Shown piece after piece: positions 34,341-39,432 of a DNA stretch of 47,523 bases. Source of the stretch: Betaproteobacteria bacterium (GTDB taxonomy: Bacteria > Pseudomonadota > Gammaproteobacteria > Burkholderiales > SG8-41); NCBI GenBank assembly GCA_947486575.1, contig CANKUB010000021.1, forward strand, positions 1-47,523, read 5' to 3'. The notes beneath the pieces are model-generated. The model ran no database searches, had not been told where the DNA came from, and worked only from the letters and a program-made list of their open reading frames with translations. How positions within the stretch are numbered: position 1 is the first letter of the stretch; the number at the start of each line of letters is the position of its first letter. Made by a program: the position numbers and the translations under genes.

Positions 34341-35324
34341 ATGAGGTCAGCAATCGTTTCGAAGGTGATCGCAGTGCTGCTGTGCAGTGCCGGAGTCTTG
34401 CCGCAGGCTGCTGTGGCGCAAGTGTGGCCAAACCGGCCGGTGCGAATCGTGAATCCCACACAGCCGGGCGGCCCCTCGGACATCATGGCGCGCAGCATGG
34501 CGCAGAAGTTTACCGAGGCGTTCGGCCAAACCTTTATTATCGACAACCGGCCGGGGGCTAACGGCATCATCGGCGTCGATCTGGTGGCGAAGGCCAGTGC
34601 TGATGGCTATACCTTGCTGGCGGGCACCAATGGCCAACTGATCGCCAATACGGCCGTGTTTCCCAAGCTGCCATTCGACGCGGTGCGCGATTTTGCACCG
34701 ATCACCATTGTGGTGTCATCGCCGTTTGTGCTGGTGGTCAATGCGTCGCTACCTGCGAAGTCCGTAACGGAACTGGTCGCGCTGGCTAAAGCGAAGCCTG
34801 GCATGTCGTATTCGTCGTTCGGCCCGGCAAGCATCGCGCACTTCGGCATGGAACTCATTAAGTTGCGCACCGGCATGAAGATGACGCACGTGCCCTACAA
34901 AGGGGGTGCGCCGTCGGCTGCGGCGCTGGTCTCCGGCGAAGTCCATGCGTCGCTGGACTCGGTGCAGAATCAGTTGCAATTCATTCGCAGCAACCGCGTT
35001 CGCGCGCTGGCTCTTGCGAACGGCACGCGGCTGAAAGTGTGGCCCGACGTGCCCACGACGGCAGAGGCCGGCATTACCGGTGTCGAAATTGGTGGCTGGT
35101 ATTCACTGCTTGCGCCAGCGGGCACGCCGAAGGCAGTAGTCAATCGTCTGTACGACGAATCCGTGAAGGCGTTCAAGGCGTCGCCTGAATTGCGCGAACG
35201 TTTTGAATCCACCGGCTCGGATGTGTTGCTGAATACGCCCGCAGATTTTGCCGCACGGATCAAGCGCGAGATCGGCGAGTACACCAAAGTAGCACGCGAA
35301 GCCAACATCACCGTCAGCCAGTAA
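34341..35324 (+). CDS. Bug/TctC substrate-binding protein 12
   Basis: A 327-residue receptor with GAGGAG 8 bases before the ATG and a signal peptide ending in AAVAQ. The ligand loop is VNPTQPGGPSDIMAR. The hinge segment is one or two residues shorter than usual (KPGMSYSSFGPASIAHF). The cleft is HVPYKGGAPSAAALVSGEVHASLDS. It lies between the lipoyl carrier and the AhpD-like selenoprotein gene, 70 bases before the latter. Confidence 0.95.
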   Translation: MRSAIVSKVIAVLLCSAGVLPQAAVAQVWPNRPVRIVNPTQPGGPSDIMARSMAQKFTEAFGQTFIIDNRPGANGIIGVDLVAKASADGYTLLAGTNGQLIANTAVFPKLPFDAVRDFAPITIVVSSPFVLVVNASLPAKSVTELVALAKAKPGMSYSSFGPASIAHFGMELIKLRTGMKMTHVPYKGGAPSAAALVSGEVHASLDSVQNQLQFIRSNRVRALALANGTRLKVWPDVPTTAEAGITGVEIGGWYSLLAPAGTPKAVVNRLYDESVKAFKASPELRERFESTGSDVLLNTPADFAARIKREIGEYTKVAREANITVSQ

Positions 35325-35349
35325 CTGTGAAATATTAAATTATTCAATA

Positions 35350-35363
35350 TAATCAAATAGTTA
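35350..35363 (+). repeat. Partial copy of the A-rich intergenic motif
   Basis: TAATCAAATAGTTA differs from the TAAAAACAAATAGTTA core in its 5' part but keeps CAAATAGTTA. It lies 31 bases before the AhpD-like start, inside an AT-rich stretch that could be the promoter region. Confidence 0.3.
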
Positions 35364-35394
35364 TAATTAACTTCTATTCTGAGTGAGGTTGCCG

Positions 35395-36021
35395 ATGGCC
35401 CGCGTTCCCTTAGTTCAAAACGACAATGCGCCGCAAGAAGTGCGCGCGGCATTTGATGCAGCAAACAGTTTCAACGGGCGCGTCGCCAACTCGATGCGCG
35501 TTTACGCGCACTCGCCCGCCATATTGAAGTTCCTGCTGCCACTTCAGGCGGTGTTGCAGAAGGATGGTCTCGGCTGCAAGCTGGACGCCAAGACGCGCGC
35601 GCTCGCGATGATTAAAGTCTCGGCGCTAAACGAATGTCAGTATTGAATAAAACACAATCGCCTGGTCGGGCGAACAACGGGTTGGAGCGACGAGCAACTG
35701 GACGCGCTCAGTGACGATGACTATCTTGATAGCGCACTGTTCGGCGAGCGTGAAAAGGCCGTCATACGCTGGGCGGAACTGGTTACGTGGAACAAGGCGC
35801 GTTATGACGATGATGCGTTCACGCAACTTTCAAAATATTTCGACAGCACCGAAATTGTCGAGCTGACGACAGTTGCCGCGTTTCGCGGATTGATGAATCG
35901 CTTTATGGATTCGCTGCACATCGAACTCGAAGAGCCCGAGCTGCAGGCACGCGGTGGCCGCGCCGATGCGAGCCGTGAAGACCTGCATGCCTATGTCGAA
36001 AAACTGGTTAATCTGATCTAA
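35395..36021 (+). CDS. AhpD/carboxymuconolactone decarboxylase-like selenoprotein (CxxU)
   Basis: Translated straight through one TGA (35644-35646, codon 84) this is a 208-residue CMD/AhpD-like protein. The TGA stands where the family has the second cysteine of its redox pair: N79-E-C81-Q-Y-[TGA84]-I-K-H87-N, against the usual CxxC followed by His. The frame stays open and family-like for another 124 codons (GWSDEQLDALSDD, EKAVIRWAELVTWN, STEIVELTTVAAFRGLMNRF). A SECIS-like hairpin begins 11 bases after the TGA. I therefore read the TGA as selenocysteine, giving a CxxU selenol-thiol active site. The alternative is a nonsense-mutated pseudogene. AhpD proteins reduce peroxiredoxins with lipoyl electrons. 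The start is ATG 35395; GTG 35383 is an alternative. The OsmC-like gene follows 45 bases later. Confidence 0.85.
35658..35673 (+). promoter_or_regulatory. Bacterial SECIS-like hairpin of the AhpD-like gene
   Basis: TCGCC-TGGTCG-GGCGA forms a 5-base-pair stem with a six-base loop containing GGUC. It begins exactly 11 bases after the TGA, and the loop begins 17 bases after it. From memory this is the spacing of the E. coli fdhF element, whose loop AGGUCU has the same central GGUC, recognised by SelB. Confidence 0.8.
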
Positions 36022-36066
36022 GGTTGTATCTTCGCGGGTCATCGCAAAAACTATCAGGAGCGCACG

Positions 36067-36627
36067 ATGAACGACAAGCCGTTAAATGCAGCAGAACAAA
36101 GCACCAAGCCCGGCGAGCGCATTACCGACAAGCCAGAGTTGCCGCCGCAAGGCCTTGCCATGCACCTGGTGGCGGATACCGAATCGATCGAGGGCGAGCA
36201 CCACCTCAAGCTCGGCCACTCGCGGGGCTTTGATATCTATTCCGATGAACCGCCCACGATTGGCGGCACCAACAAGTTTCCGCCGCCAATGAGTTACCTC
36301 GCGCTGGCAATAGGATTCTGACTGCTGACTCAGGTGGCGCGGTACGCGTCCATGATGAAGCTGAAAGTTAAAAAGGCCCGCTGCCATGTTGAGTTTGACT
36401 TCCAGGTTTCGGGGTCGGTATTAAAGGGCACGGTCAAGGGCAGTTGGCAGGGCATCAGCACGAGTCTGGAAATCGATTCGGACGAGCCGATGGACAAGAT
36501 CGTCGCTCTGACACGCAACGCCAAAGGCGGTTGTTTTGCGGAACAGTTGATTGTGAATCCGGTAAAGCTCACCAGTTCAATCACCTTGCGCGGAGAAACA
36601 GTGCATTTTGAACCCGAGAACGGATGA
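36067..36627 (+). CDS. OsmC-like selenoprotein, copy 1
   Basis: Read through one TGA (36319-36321, codon 85) this is a 186-residue OsmC/Ohr-fold protein. The TGA falls in MSYLALAIGF-[TGA]-LLTQVARYA, the position of the peroxidatic Cys (GxCxxxxLxxyA) at the start of the long central helix. The second family cysteine is kept in NAKGGCFAEQL. The downstream half (MKLKVKKARCHVEFDF ... FEPENG) is in the same frame and typical of OsmC. AGGAG lies 6-7 bases before the ATG. It belongs with the AhpD-like gene (45 bases upstream). The paralog at 38738-39298 has TGA at the identical alignment position, which argues strongly against chance mutation. Likely role: reduction of organic or fatty-acid hydroperoxides with a selenol. 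Confidence 0.88.
36336..36350 (+). promoter_or_regulatory. SECIS-like hairpin of OsmC-like copy 1
   Basis: GGCGCG-GTA-CGCGTC forms 6 base pairs (one G-U) with a GUA loop, starting 14 bases after the TGA; the loop begins 21 bases after it. Compared with the copy 2 hairpin, the outer pair is G-C here and U-A there, and the second pair is G-U here and G-C there. The pairing is preserved although the bases changed. Confidence 0.82.
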
Positions 36628-36649
36628 CGCAGAAATCGCCCTGCGTTTT

Positions 36650-37635
36650 GTGGCTCGACCGTGGCGAAGATCTGTGACCTCAAGTGCTATGGCAGCGTTG
36701 GCTGCTCTGGTTGCAGGGCTGGCTGCCAGCGCGGCGTCTGCGCAGAATTTTCCGCACAAGCCCCTGCGCATGATTGTACCCAGTTCCCCCGGCGGGGGCA
36801 GCGACATCATGGGCCGCTTTCTGGCACAAAAGCTGGCCGAGCAACTGGGGCAGCAAGTCGTGGTAGAGAATCGACCTGGCGCCAGCAGCATGCTCGGCAC
36901 GGATGCCGCGGCAAAGTCACCGCCGGATGGTTATACGCTGGTGATTCCGCCGGCCGCGGTTGCGGTCAACCCCAGCATATTCGCCAGACTGCCATACGAT
37001 ACGCTGCGTGATCTTGCAGCGATTACCCAGGTCGCCGAGTCGGCCAACGTGCTGGTGGCCCATCCGGCGCTACCCGTGCGCACGATCAAGGATTTGATCG
37101 CACTCGCAAAAGCGAAACCCGGTACGCTGTCCGCGGCATCAGTGGCACGCCCCATATGGCAGCGGAACTGTTCAAGCTAATGACGGGAGCCGATTTTCTG
37201 ATCATCGTCTACAAGGGCTCTGCCCCGGGGTCAATTGCTGTCATGTCAGGCGAAGTGCCGCTGCAGTTTTCCACACCGCCGTCGTCGTTGCCGTATGTGC
37301 GGGCCGGGCGCATGCGCGCACTTGGGGTAACCACCCGTTCGCGCGTGCCATCGATGCCGGAAGTGCCCACCATCGCCGAGTCCGGCGTGCCGGGTTATGA
37401 GGCAACTCAGTGGTTTGGGCTCTTCACGGCCGGCGGAACGCCATCGGCAATTGTTGATCGGCTCGCGCAGGAAACGTCGCGCGCGGTTCGTTCCCCCGAT
37501 CTGAAAGACAGAATGTCCGCAGAAGGATTGCAGCCGGTGGGAAATACGCCCACGGAGTTTTCTGCGTATCTCAGAGCTGAAATGGTCAAGTGGGCGAAAG
37601 TAGTCAAGGCCGCCAATATCAAACCGAAAACTTGA
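36650..37635 (+). pseudogene. Bug/TctC substrate-binding protein 13, frameshifted
   Basis: A complete Bug gene broken once. From GTG 36650 (or ATG 36689, MAALAALVAGL) the signal peptide (ending in SAASAQ), ligand loop VPSSPGGGSDIMGR and DNR-like VENRPGASSM are normal up to KPGTLSAAS. There the frame is lost, and it ends at a stop at 37178-37180. The other frame resumes with ISGTPHMAAELFKLMTG and runs on normally to the end. The shift lies at about 37131-37147, where family proteins have a Gly/Ser-rich loop (SSGIGGTPH). A deletion of 3n+1 bases explains it, for instance 7 bases lost between two GGCATC direct repeats (inference). It may also be an assembly error. It lies 22 bases after OsmC copy 1. 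Confidence 0.85.
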
Positions 37636-37640
37636 AGCAG

Positions 37641-38681
37641 ATGAACGAAATAATGCATTCCAGAGCGCCATTTGCCACCGTATACGAACGCCTTCGGCAC
37701 ACCCTGCATCAATGGCTAGTGGCAGCAGTTACGATCATTCCAATGATGGTATTTGGCATACGCGGCGCAAATGCGCAGGACAGCTATCCCCAAAAACCAG
37801 TGCGCTGGATAGCGCCTGTGCTTGCGGGCGGCGCAGGGGATTTGATTGCACGTTCGATGGCGCCGAAACTCACAGAGCTGTGGGGACAGCAGGTGATTAT
37901 CGACAATCGTGTGGGCGGCGGCGGCACGCTGGGCATGGGTATTGCGGCACGCATGGCGCCTGACGGCTACACCATTGTGCTGGGCGTATCATCGTTTGTG
38001 GTAATGGCGCCGGGTATCTATCCGAAGCTGGCCTACGACACGCTGAAGGATTTTTCGCCGATCACTCAGATACTGGCCGCGCCGTTGGTTCTGCTGGCTA
38101 ATAACGCGTTTCCCGCGAAATCGGTGACAGAATTAATTTCTCTCGCAAAAGCCAAACCGGGGCTGGTCAGTTACGGATCGCCGGGCAATGGTTCGGCAGC
38201 GCATCTCGCCAGCGAATTGTTTCGCTTCATGTCTGGAACACAGATGTTGCACGTCCCCTATCGCGGCGCGCCTCCGGTCTATACGGATCTGGTCGCCGGA
38301 CAGATAACCCTCTACATGGGCACGGTTCCGGCGGCCTTGCCGCTCACCAAGGCTGGACGACTTAAGGCCTTGGCTACAACGGGTCTCAAACGATCACGGG
38401 TCTATCCCAATCAGCCAACGGTGTCAGAGTCAGGGCTTCCCGGCTACGACGTAACCACCTGGTACGGCGTGCTGGCACCTATAGGCGTGCCGCCGCCGAT
38501 ACTCAACAAAATACATGCCGATATGATGCGGGTAATCCGCCTGCCGGAGGTGGAGGAGCGATTCGCGAACGAAGGCGGCGATATCGTCGGCAGCAAACCC
38601 GAGGCGTTCAGTGCCTTTATCGCACTGGAACTCGGCAAATGGGCAAAAATCGCCAAAGCGGCCGGCATCAAGATCGATTAA
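37641..38681 (+). CDS. Bug/TctC substrate-binding protein 14
   Basis: A 346-residue receptor with an unusually long n-region (HSRAPFATVYERLRHTLHQW) before the hydrophobic core, ending at GANAQ; ATG 37653 is an alternative start. The ligand loop is APVLAGGAGDLIAR, with the usual Pro-Gly replaced by Ala-Gly, and the cleft HVPYRGAPPVYTDLVAGQITL. It starts 5 bases after the stop of the frameshifted Bug gene, so translation may be coupled and could depend on ribosomes completing that frame. Confidence 0.94.
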   Translation: MNEIMHSRAPFATVYERLRHTLHQWLVAAVTIIPMMVFGIRGANAQDSYPQKPVRWIAPVLAGGAGDLIARSMAPKLTELWGQQVIIDNRVGGGGTLGMGIAARMAPDGYTIVLGVSSFVVMAPGIYPKLAYDTLKDFSPITQILAAPLVLLANNAFPAKSVTELISLAKAKPGLVSYGSPGNGSAAHLASELFRFMSGTQMLHVPYRGAPPVYTDLVAGQITLYMGTVPAALPLTKAGRLKALATTGLKRSRVYPNQPTVSESGLPGYDVTTWYGVLAPIGVPPPILNKIHADMMRVIRLPEVEERFANEGGDIVGSKPEAFSAFIALELGKWAKIAKAAGIKID

Positions 38682-38737
38682 CGACTCGATCACCCTGAAT
38701 TAGCCGACCCCGCCTAGGGCCACGTCAGGGCTACGCG

Positions 38738-39298
38738 CTACTGCTGCGTCACGCCTTCGATGTGAAACGGTTTGCCGTTTACTTCGATATGGCTACGCAG
38801 CGGAACCGCCTGAGTAATCAGGCCTTCTGCAAAGCAACCTGCCTTGGCGTTTTTGATCAGGTGCGCGAGTTTGTCTTCAGCCTCGTCACTGTCTACGGTC
38901 AGGTAAGTCGTTATACCCTCCCAGCGATTGAACACCGTGCCCTTCAGCACTGAGCCGCCCAGGTGTTTGCGCATCACCACACGGCATTTCGGATTGCTGA
39001 CTTTCAGCTTCATCATGTGCGCGTACCGCGCAACCTGAGTGAGTAGTCAGAAGCCGATCGACATCGCCAGATAAGTCATCGGCGACGGATAGGTATCCGT
39101 ACCGCCGATGCGTGCGGGCTCGTCGCACCAAACCTCAAATTTGCCCGACTTGCTGTATTTGAGCTGCAACTGGCCGGTAACCGTTTCGGTCAGCACATCG
39201 TTTTCGTTGGTGATGCCTGCCGCCGGAAGTTCGGGCTTGTCGATCACCCGCTCTCCCGGCTTGTCGGACAATGCATCATTACCTAATGGTTTGTTCAT
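38738..39298 (-). CDS. OsmC-like selenoprotein, copy 2
   Basis: Read through one TGA (39049-39047, codon 84) this is a 186-residue paralog of the gene at 36067, with about half its residues identical by eye. The context is MTYLAMSIGF-[TGA]-LLTQVARYAHMMKLKV, matching copy 1 residue for residue around the TGA. The second cysteine lies in NAKAGCFAEGL. AGAGGAG precedes the ATG by about 5 bases; an in-frame start at 39325 is rejected for this reason. The shared N-terminal KPGERxIDKPELP segment shows common origin. The codons around the TGA differ at silent positions (CTG CTG against CTA CTC), so the copies have been diverging for some time with the TGA retained. It lies 134 bases downstream of Bug 15 on the minus strand. 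Confidence 0.88.
39018..39032 (-). promoter_or_regulatory. SECIS-like hairpin of OsmC-like copy 2
   Basis: On the minus strand TGCGCG-GTA-CGCGCA gives six Watson-Crick pairs and a GUA loop, again starting exactly 14 bases after the TGA. The inner four pairs and loop are identical to copy 1; the outer two pairs differ in a compensatory way. Confidence 0.82.
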
Positions 39299-39432
39299 GT
39301 GACTCCTCTGGTTGCGTGTTGGCACCGTTCATATTGAATGAATTGCGCTCACAAATACTACACGAGACTCAGGATTTCAACAGCCATGCCATCTCGCTCA
39401 GGTATTTTCGTTCGCCGCAGACAAGCTTTTAA

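Follow-up and report, generated by a model that had tools for sequence, protein, structure and literature searches.

Predicted selenocysteine codons at the first redox position of two paralogous OsmC-domain genes in a betaproteobacterial genome

We have analyzed a 47,523-nucleotide stretch of DNA (hereafter, the window) from a Betaproteobacteria bacterium (contig CANKUB010000021.1 of GenBank assembly GCA_947486575.1), which contains two paralogous OsmC-domain genes, OsmC1 and OsmC2, each with an in-frame TGA codon. Both TGAs are, with high confidence, selenocysteine (Sec) codons directed by a selenocysteine insertion sequence (SECIS) hairpin, with Sec predicted to replace the first redox Cys of the family; this degree of confidence applies to the two codons and does not extend to the AhpD relay considered below. 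The window corresponds to a single contig (C21) from a genome with 5,349,341 bases and a completeness of 98.04%. In the following, L denotes loci and G genomes of relatives, C contigs of the source genome, and P0001 and P0002 stand for OsmC1 and OsmC2. The window frames with a read-through TGA number 71, and homology was examined for three of them, i.e., OsmC1, OsmC2, and an AhpD/CMD-like gene.

OsmC1 (36067..36627, + strand) and OsmC2 (38738..39298, − strand) each encode 186 residues. As described in the first-pass annotation of this DNA, both genes read IGF-U-LLTQVARYA around the in-frame TGA and lie on opposite strands, 2.1 kb apart. The TGA is codon 85 of OsmC1 (36319..36321, + strand) and codon 84 of OsmC2 (39047..39049, − strand), and the reading frames stay open for a further 101 and 102 codons, respectively, consistent with the approximately 100 codons claimed before. 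The second family Cys, likewise reported as retained, was found as the resolving-type Cys156 of OsmC1 (36532..36534, + strand) and Cys155 of OsmC2 (38834..38836, − strand), the latter also in a column conserved in homologs; each protein has two redox positions, with the predicted Sec first and Cys second, and a UxxT motif in the form U-L-L-T. Both proteins score above the cut-off for PF02566 (49.7 bits for OsmC1 and 45.6 bits for OsmC2; cut-off 27.5) and for NF041052 (161.4 bits for P0001 and 163.7 bits for P0002; curated cut-off 95), and the assignment of OsmC1 is also based on its relatives. The two proteins are 52% identical across 180 residues.

The comparison of homologous sites supports the reading of the TGA as a Sec codon in both genes. 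A search of the 74 genomes of the family gave 91 rows, with a match in 51 genomes, and all 70 rows with at least 40% identity that span the Sec column have TGA there; two further rows at this identity (G063:C98 and G004:C180:4102) start past the column. The remaining 19 rows, with less than 40% identity, comprise 16 without a stop, one with TGA (matching residues 100-177 only), and two with TAA. A tblastn search on 136 records yielded 71 distinct sites, with TGA in 69, TGC in one, and TGT in one, and the second Cys column has Cys in 69/69 of the window-type homologs. When 399 genomes, sampled evenly across the order, were searched, 51 gave a match; outside the family, rows with at least 40% identity were found only in G214 and G210, all of them with TGA. 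In the same sample, a row of G394 at 26% identity also contains a TGA. Among more distant relatives, a sample of 20 loci was fetched from the distant rows (L146-L165), and all 20 have, in one domain or more, TGC or TGT at the aligned position. Thirteen of these loci (L146-L152, L154-L158, and L162), from other parts of the order, encode tandem OsmC-domain proteins, in which the second domain has Cys at the active column and the first domain has Asp where it could be aligned. The column had been expected to hold Cys or Sec in homologs, as was found. Since TGA occurs in the close homologs, and Cys in two of the sites and in the distant loci, we conclude that predicted Sec and Cys alternate at this first redox position.

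A second line of evidence comes from the hairpin that follows each TGA. The core hairpin of OsmC1 (36336..36350, + strand) and that of OsmC2 (39018..39032, − strand) have six base pairs and a GUA loop (36342-36344 in OsmC1) located 20 nt after the TGA. The earlier description, i.e., 14 bases between TGA and stem and six pairs (+15 to +20 with +24 to +29) around GUA, holds for both genes, as do the claimed differences between them, with an outermost pair that is G-C in OsmC1 and U-A in OsmC2 and a next pair that is G-U and G-C, respectively. Pair types were counted on the 52 distinct 48-mers from the 69 TGA sites. The outermost pair (15-29) is T-A in 35, G-C in 16, and G-A in one, and the next pair (16-28) is G-C in 36, G-T in nine, T-A in six, and A-T in one; the inner four pairs are almost invariant, and G is present at +21 in 52/52. 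The rules for bacterial SECIS elements given in the available text of PMC13188914 include a loop of 3-9 nt, a stem of 4-16 bp, a G within the first two loop positions, a distance of 16-37 nt from the UGA to the apical loop, and a minimum free energy (MFE) of −7.5 or lower. Taken in that form, the OsmC1 and OsmC2 hairpins lie within the rules for loop, stem, G, spacing, and MFE, the MFE of the TGA plus 14 codons being −13.9 kcal/mol for OsmC1 and −12.3 kcal/mol for OsmC2.

The constraint on synonymous codons is confined to this hairpin. Across the 69 TGA sites, synonymous diversity at codons +6 to +9 is 0, 0, 0.06, and 0.04 of the expectation, compared with 53 other conserved columns, for which the median is 0.87 and the lowest value 0.28. 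Arg +7 is encoded by CGG in 69/69, a codon that makes up 16% of the Arg codons elsewhere in the same genes, and Val +5 by GTT in 46/67, with a GTT share of 10%. On the protein tree, the four silent sites between the TGA and the stem have changed 6-16 times versus 0-1 times for four silent sites in the stem and loop. Folding energy alone is less striking than this synonymous constraint: for OsmC1, 16 of 2000 synonymous shuffles had an MFE as low.

The source genome also encodes the machinery for Sec insertion, as the first-pass annotation had proposed to check, with selA (579.3 bits), selB (455.5 bits), selD (426.1 bits), and tRNA-Sec (77.7 bits) all over their cut-offs. Contig C47 holds selA, selB, and tRNA-Sec inside 4.6 kb, and the tRNA-Sec call, with anticodon tca (UCA), agrees between ARAGORN and Rfam. 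The selD gene is a TGA gene too, reading HGGG-U-GCK. Within the family, tRNA-Sec was detected at 71 bits or more in 67/74 genomes; the tally at the 47-bit cut-off is 68/74, the difference being G053 with 47.5 bits.

Several observations weigh against Sec insertion at these codons or against parts of this interpretation. No tRNA-Sec reaching 71 bits was found in seven family genomes (72-91% complete), of which four (G003, G038, G043, and G053) have a TGA OsmC gene. Two metagenome-assembled genomes (MAGs) of Tectomicrobia (G461 and G462; loci L034 and L035) contain a TGA OsmC gene 74% identical to the window type, and no selB over the cut-off was found in either (best scores 68.5 and 97.6 versus 242.25 bits); in G214, selB gave just short matches under the cut-off, and in G210 a match at 442.8 bits. 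It is possible that the Tectomicrobia genomes with a TGA gene and no selB over the cut-off are incomplete or misbinned, and the presence of the gene in this group could possibly be due to transfer or, again, misbinning. With 74% identity, these two loci are nearly as close as G037 (77%), a genome of the window's own family. Regarding the hairpin, two of the six pairs are broken in the homolog L093, and parsimony on the protein tree gives approximately three changes for each of the outer pairs 15-29 and 16-28, meaning that the covariation stems from few independent events. The folding energy of OsmC2 is moderate (86 of 2000 synonymous shuffles as low), and Rfam gave zero matches over 35300-39400 up to E = 1. 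At the protein level, position −10 from Sec in P0001 is Met75, and an Ohr-type Glu thus appears to be missing; in Ohr, this Glu precedes the first Cys by ten residues, and the motif NPEQ is seen in the row of the Ohr structure 6mjn.

Three other explanations were considered for the TGA codons and their hairpins. If the TGAs were true stops, the genes would be pseudogenes or encode truncated proteins of 83-84 residues. The neighboring TctC gene (36608-37635) is split in two frames, and broken genes or sequence errors do therefore occur in the region, but 69/71 distinct homologs down to ~41% identity have TGA at this codon and none has TAA or TAG, the downstream half is conserved including Cys156, and selA, selB, selD, and tRNA-Sec are all present, which leaves true stops with a negligible probability. 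We regard a genome-wide reassignment of TGA (e.g., to Trp or Cys), or its suppression without a SECIS element, as extremely improbable too. No point supporting it was found, without a count of the stop codons used genome-wide, and it is at odds with the termination of OsmC1 by a TGA at 186 residues, the length at which OsmC2 ends with a different stop, with a tRNA-Sec and its own factors in the genome, and with stem codons constrained at the nucleotide level.

The hairpin could also be kept for another reason, such as the protein sequence or a different regulatory element, with the UGA read as Sec via a different signal. The amino acids at +6 to +9 are strongly conserved themselves and the folding energy is just moderately unusual, which speaks in favor of this explanation. 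On the other hand, third positions are frozen in the stem and loop only, codon +5 has T at its silent third position when +29 is A and G when +29 is C, with one exception in 52, and the spacing and apical G match the bacterial SECIS rules; we therefore consider this explanation very unlikely. All three explanations were rejected, and SECIS-directed Sec insertion is the reading retained for OsmC1 and OsmC2.

Based on the hairpin signature and the machinery, we propose that SelB with tRNA-Sec would read each UGA owing to the downstream SECIS hairpin, the apical G being the 21st base. The products would be OsmC-domain proteins with Sec at the first redox site and Cys at the second. By homology, Sec would occupy the peroxidatic position and the second Cys would be its resolving partner, with a possible peroxidase activity; a selenenic acid would likely form on Sec and be resolved by the second Cys to a selenenylsulfide, as expected from the family. 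The earlier claim of Sec at the catalytic position is thus supported by machinery and homolog columns for Sec itself, and for the term catalytic (peroxidatic) by homology only. A structure model of the window-type OsmC was of moderate quality (mean pLDDT 70.5, based on 15 sequences). Compared with the PDB, it matched 27 chains at E ≤0.001, nearly all titled OsmC or Ohr, with 3n2q as the exception; the best match was 3cje (E 8.4e-8), but with a loose superposition (TMq 0.52, rmsd 15.2). The available text of PMC8945050 describes peroxide reduction by Cys-type OsmC/Ohr proteins with recycling by lipoyl systems, and mentions YhfA-type proteins as uncharacterised and as lacking the Arg and the Glu in the vicinity of the peroxidatic Cys. 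The latter may be a better model than Ohr for OsmC1 and OsmC2.

A third in-frame TGA (35644..35646, + strand), absent from the first-pass annotation, is located in the gene just upstream of OsmC1. This AhpD/CMD-like gene (35383..36021, + strand; PF02627 36.5 bits, cut-off 23) is separated by 45 bp from the start of OsmC1 and contains a CQYU (CxxU) motif, in which the TGA, shared by homologs, is a probable Sec codon. At the TGA column, 33 distinct homologous sites comprise 31 TGA, one TGC, and one TCG. The TGA is followed by a SECIS-like hairpin of 6 bp (35658..35673, + strand; MFE −8.6), whose GGUC loop lies at a distance of 17 nt. Its codons are almost frozen across 11 close homologs, and its energy is not below that of synonymous shuffles (1727/2000 as low). 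Separate hairpin codons, again almost frozen, are present in a more distant homolog class (~37-41% identity, 19 sites), with a two-sided change in L127. The protein scored under the cut-offs of NF053654 (80.3 versus 310), TIGR01926 (68.1 versus 81.8), NF041238 (23.3 versus 175), and NF041047 (12.3 versus 110). The gene order AhpD to OsmC1 is present in the window, G071, and G004, and in G066 the AhpD gene is divergent to another OsmC paralog. Eleven loci with close AhpD homologs were fetched (L106-L116), and the short flanks of the other seven gave no OsmC match; an AhpD-OsmC operon is therefore not a general rule. In Corynebacterium glutamicum, the Cys-type OsmC is reportedly regenerated through the AhpD pathway, according to the available text of PMC8945050, and for this reason the CxxU AhpD-like protein could, by analogy, be a plausible reductant of OsmC1 in a relay.

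In the genome as a whole, six OsmC-domain genes over the cut-off were found, five of them with TGA. Four are of the window type with TGA, with two further ones on C69 and C244 in addition to OsmC1 and OsmC2. In total, TGA-bearing candidates in the genome number at least eight, i.e., the four window-type OsmC genes, one OsmC with TGA at the resolving site, AhpD-like genes on C21 and C53, and SelD; a further CMD match on C37 also contains a TGA.

The resolving-site gene is the C13 paralog P0004 (C13:53258-53701; L024:1378-1824), an OsmC/Ohr-domain gene in which the first Cys is kept and the TGA is at the second (resolving) Cys column. The window-type profile missed this paralog and the one on C12 at E 0.01, and P0004 was tied to Ohr via Pfam and PDB instead. 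When P0004 is aligned to 6mjn, an Ohr structure, its U127 coincides with the Cys of the CP-Y stretch, and its C59 with the first Cys; against NF041052, P0004 scored 30.4 bits, under the cut-off of 95. The 74 family genomes contain 20 P0004-type loci including its own (19 near full length at 66-99% identity and one fragment), with TGA in 20/20 and the first Cys in 19/19 of those reaching that site. Other P0004 matches, at 26-31% identity, are without stops. Two of the distant relatives fetched reach the column, L215 with TGT and L222 with TCG and a Cys three residues before, and several others gave no alignment there. The P0004 hairpin has 7 bp and a four-base loop from 20 nt past the TGA; both bases of one pair have changed (C-G in 18, T-A in two), and the folding test of the hairpin was weak (183/2000 shuffles as low). 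We found no description of an OsmC/Ohr form with Sec at the resolving site, including in the main text of a 2026 review (PMC13188914) and the deep-Sep paper, with supplements and most subscription papers unsearched. We tentatively suggest, as a possibility that we consider rather unlikely, that selenium entered both ends of the Ohr/OsmC pair in separate paralogs, and that together with the CxxU AhpD-like protein these could form an undescribed selenol-to-selenol peroxide-reducing relay. If true, such paralogs, with Sec at either end of the redox pair, would allow the contribution of Sec to be tested in the attacking versus the resolving role.

Regarding the surroundings, the TctC receptor gene at 36608-37635 is split over two frames, with PF03401 positions 3-112 and 121-273 in separate open reading frames, and either the gene is broken or the sequence contains an error; the relative L025 has a single continuous TctC match at this place. 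TctC-like (tripartite tricarboxylate receptor) matches number 18 in the 47.5-kb window, three of these being the queries themselves. Because they fill the window alone to this extent, a functional tie of the OsmC genes to their TctC neighbors was considered and set aside. The loci L025-L028 are closely similar to the window, and their MAG titles name Bordetella parapertussis, yet G071, one of these genomes, is placed in the window's genus and the label looks doubtful. No phage record matched P0001, and plasmid records gave two matches to P0002 (33% identity across 66% of P0002).

Genes of the OsmC1 and OsmC2 sort would be cut short or missed if the UGA were read as a stop, and their homologs provide a naturally occurring collection of SECIS elements in which both sides of the stem have changed. 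The claim that OsmC-like proteins occur among bacterial selenoproteins is correct, as seen from NF041052 (OsmC_like_Se, "OsmC-related (seleno)protein") and the published OsmC-like sets. P0001 and P0002 score far above the NF041052 cut-off, and nothing was seen that excludes membership. The available texts list an OsmC-like selenoprotein in two reviews (PMC9312934 and PMC13188914) and report OsmC-like selenoproteins with UxxT from the Sargasso Sea in 2005 (PMC1088965). Given the NF041052 scores and these UxxT sets, OsmC1 and OsmC2 are an already known sort of selenoprotein and belong, as judged from their sequences, to a catalogued family. With the Sargasso Sea proteins, as far as the available text of PMC1088965 goes, they share the UxxT motif (U-L-L-T), the OsmC domain, and a SECIS element just past the UGA; that set comprises three sequences, whereas the window has a pair of paralogs separated by 2.1 kb, with a CxxU AhpD-like gene next to them. 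The AhpD/CMD-like gene resembles the AhpD-like and CMD-like CxxU selenoproteins of PMC9312934 and PMC13188914, in their available texts, by its CxxU motif, PF02627 domain, and SECIS-like hairpin, and differs from the four curated AhpD-type models in scoring below their cut-offs. Finally, OsmC1 and OsmC2 share the OsmC domain and two redox positions with the Ohr/OsmC structures 3cje, 1nye, 1vla, and 6mjn, and differ from them by the predicted Sec at the first site and by an apparent lack of the Glu at −10.

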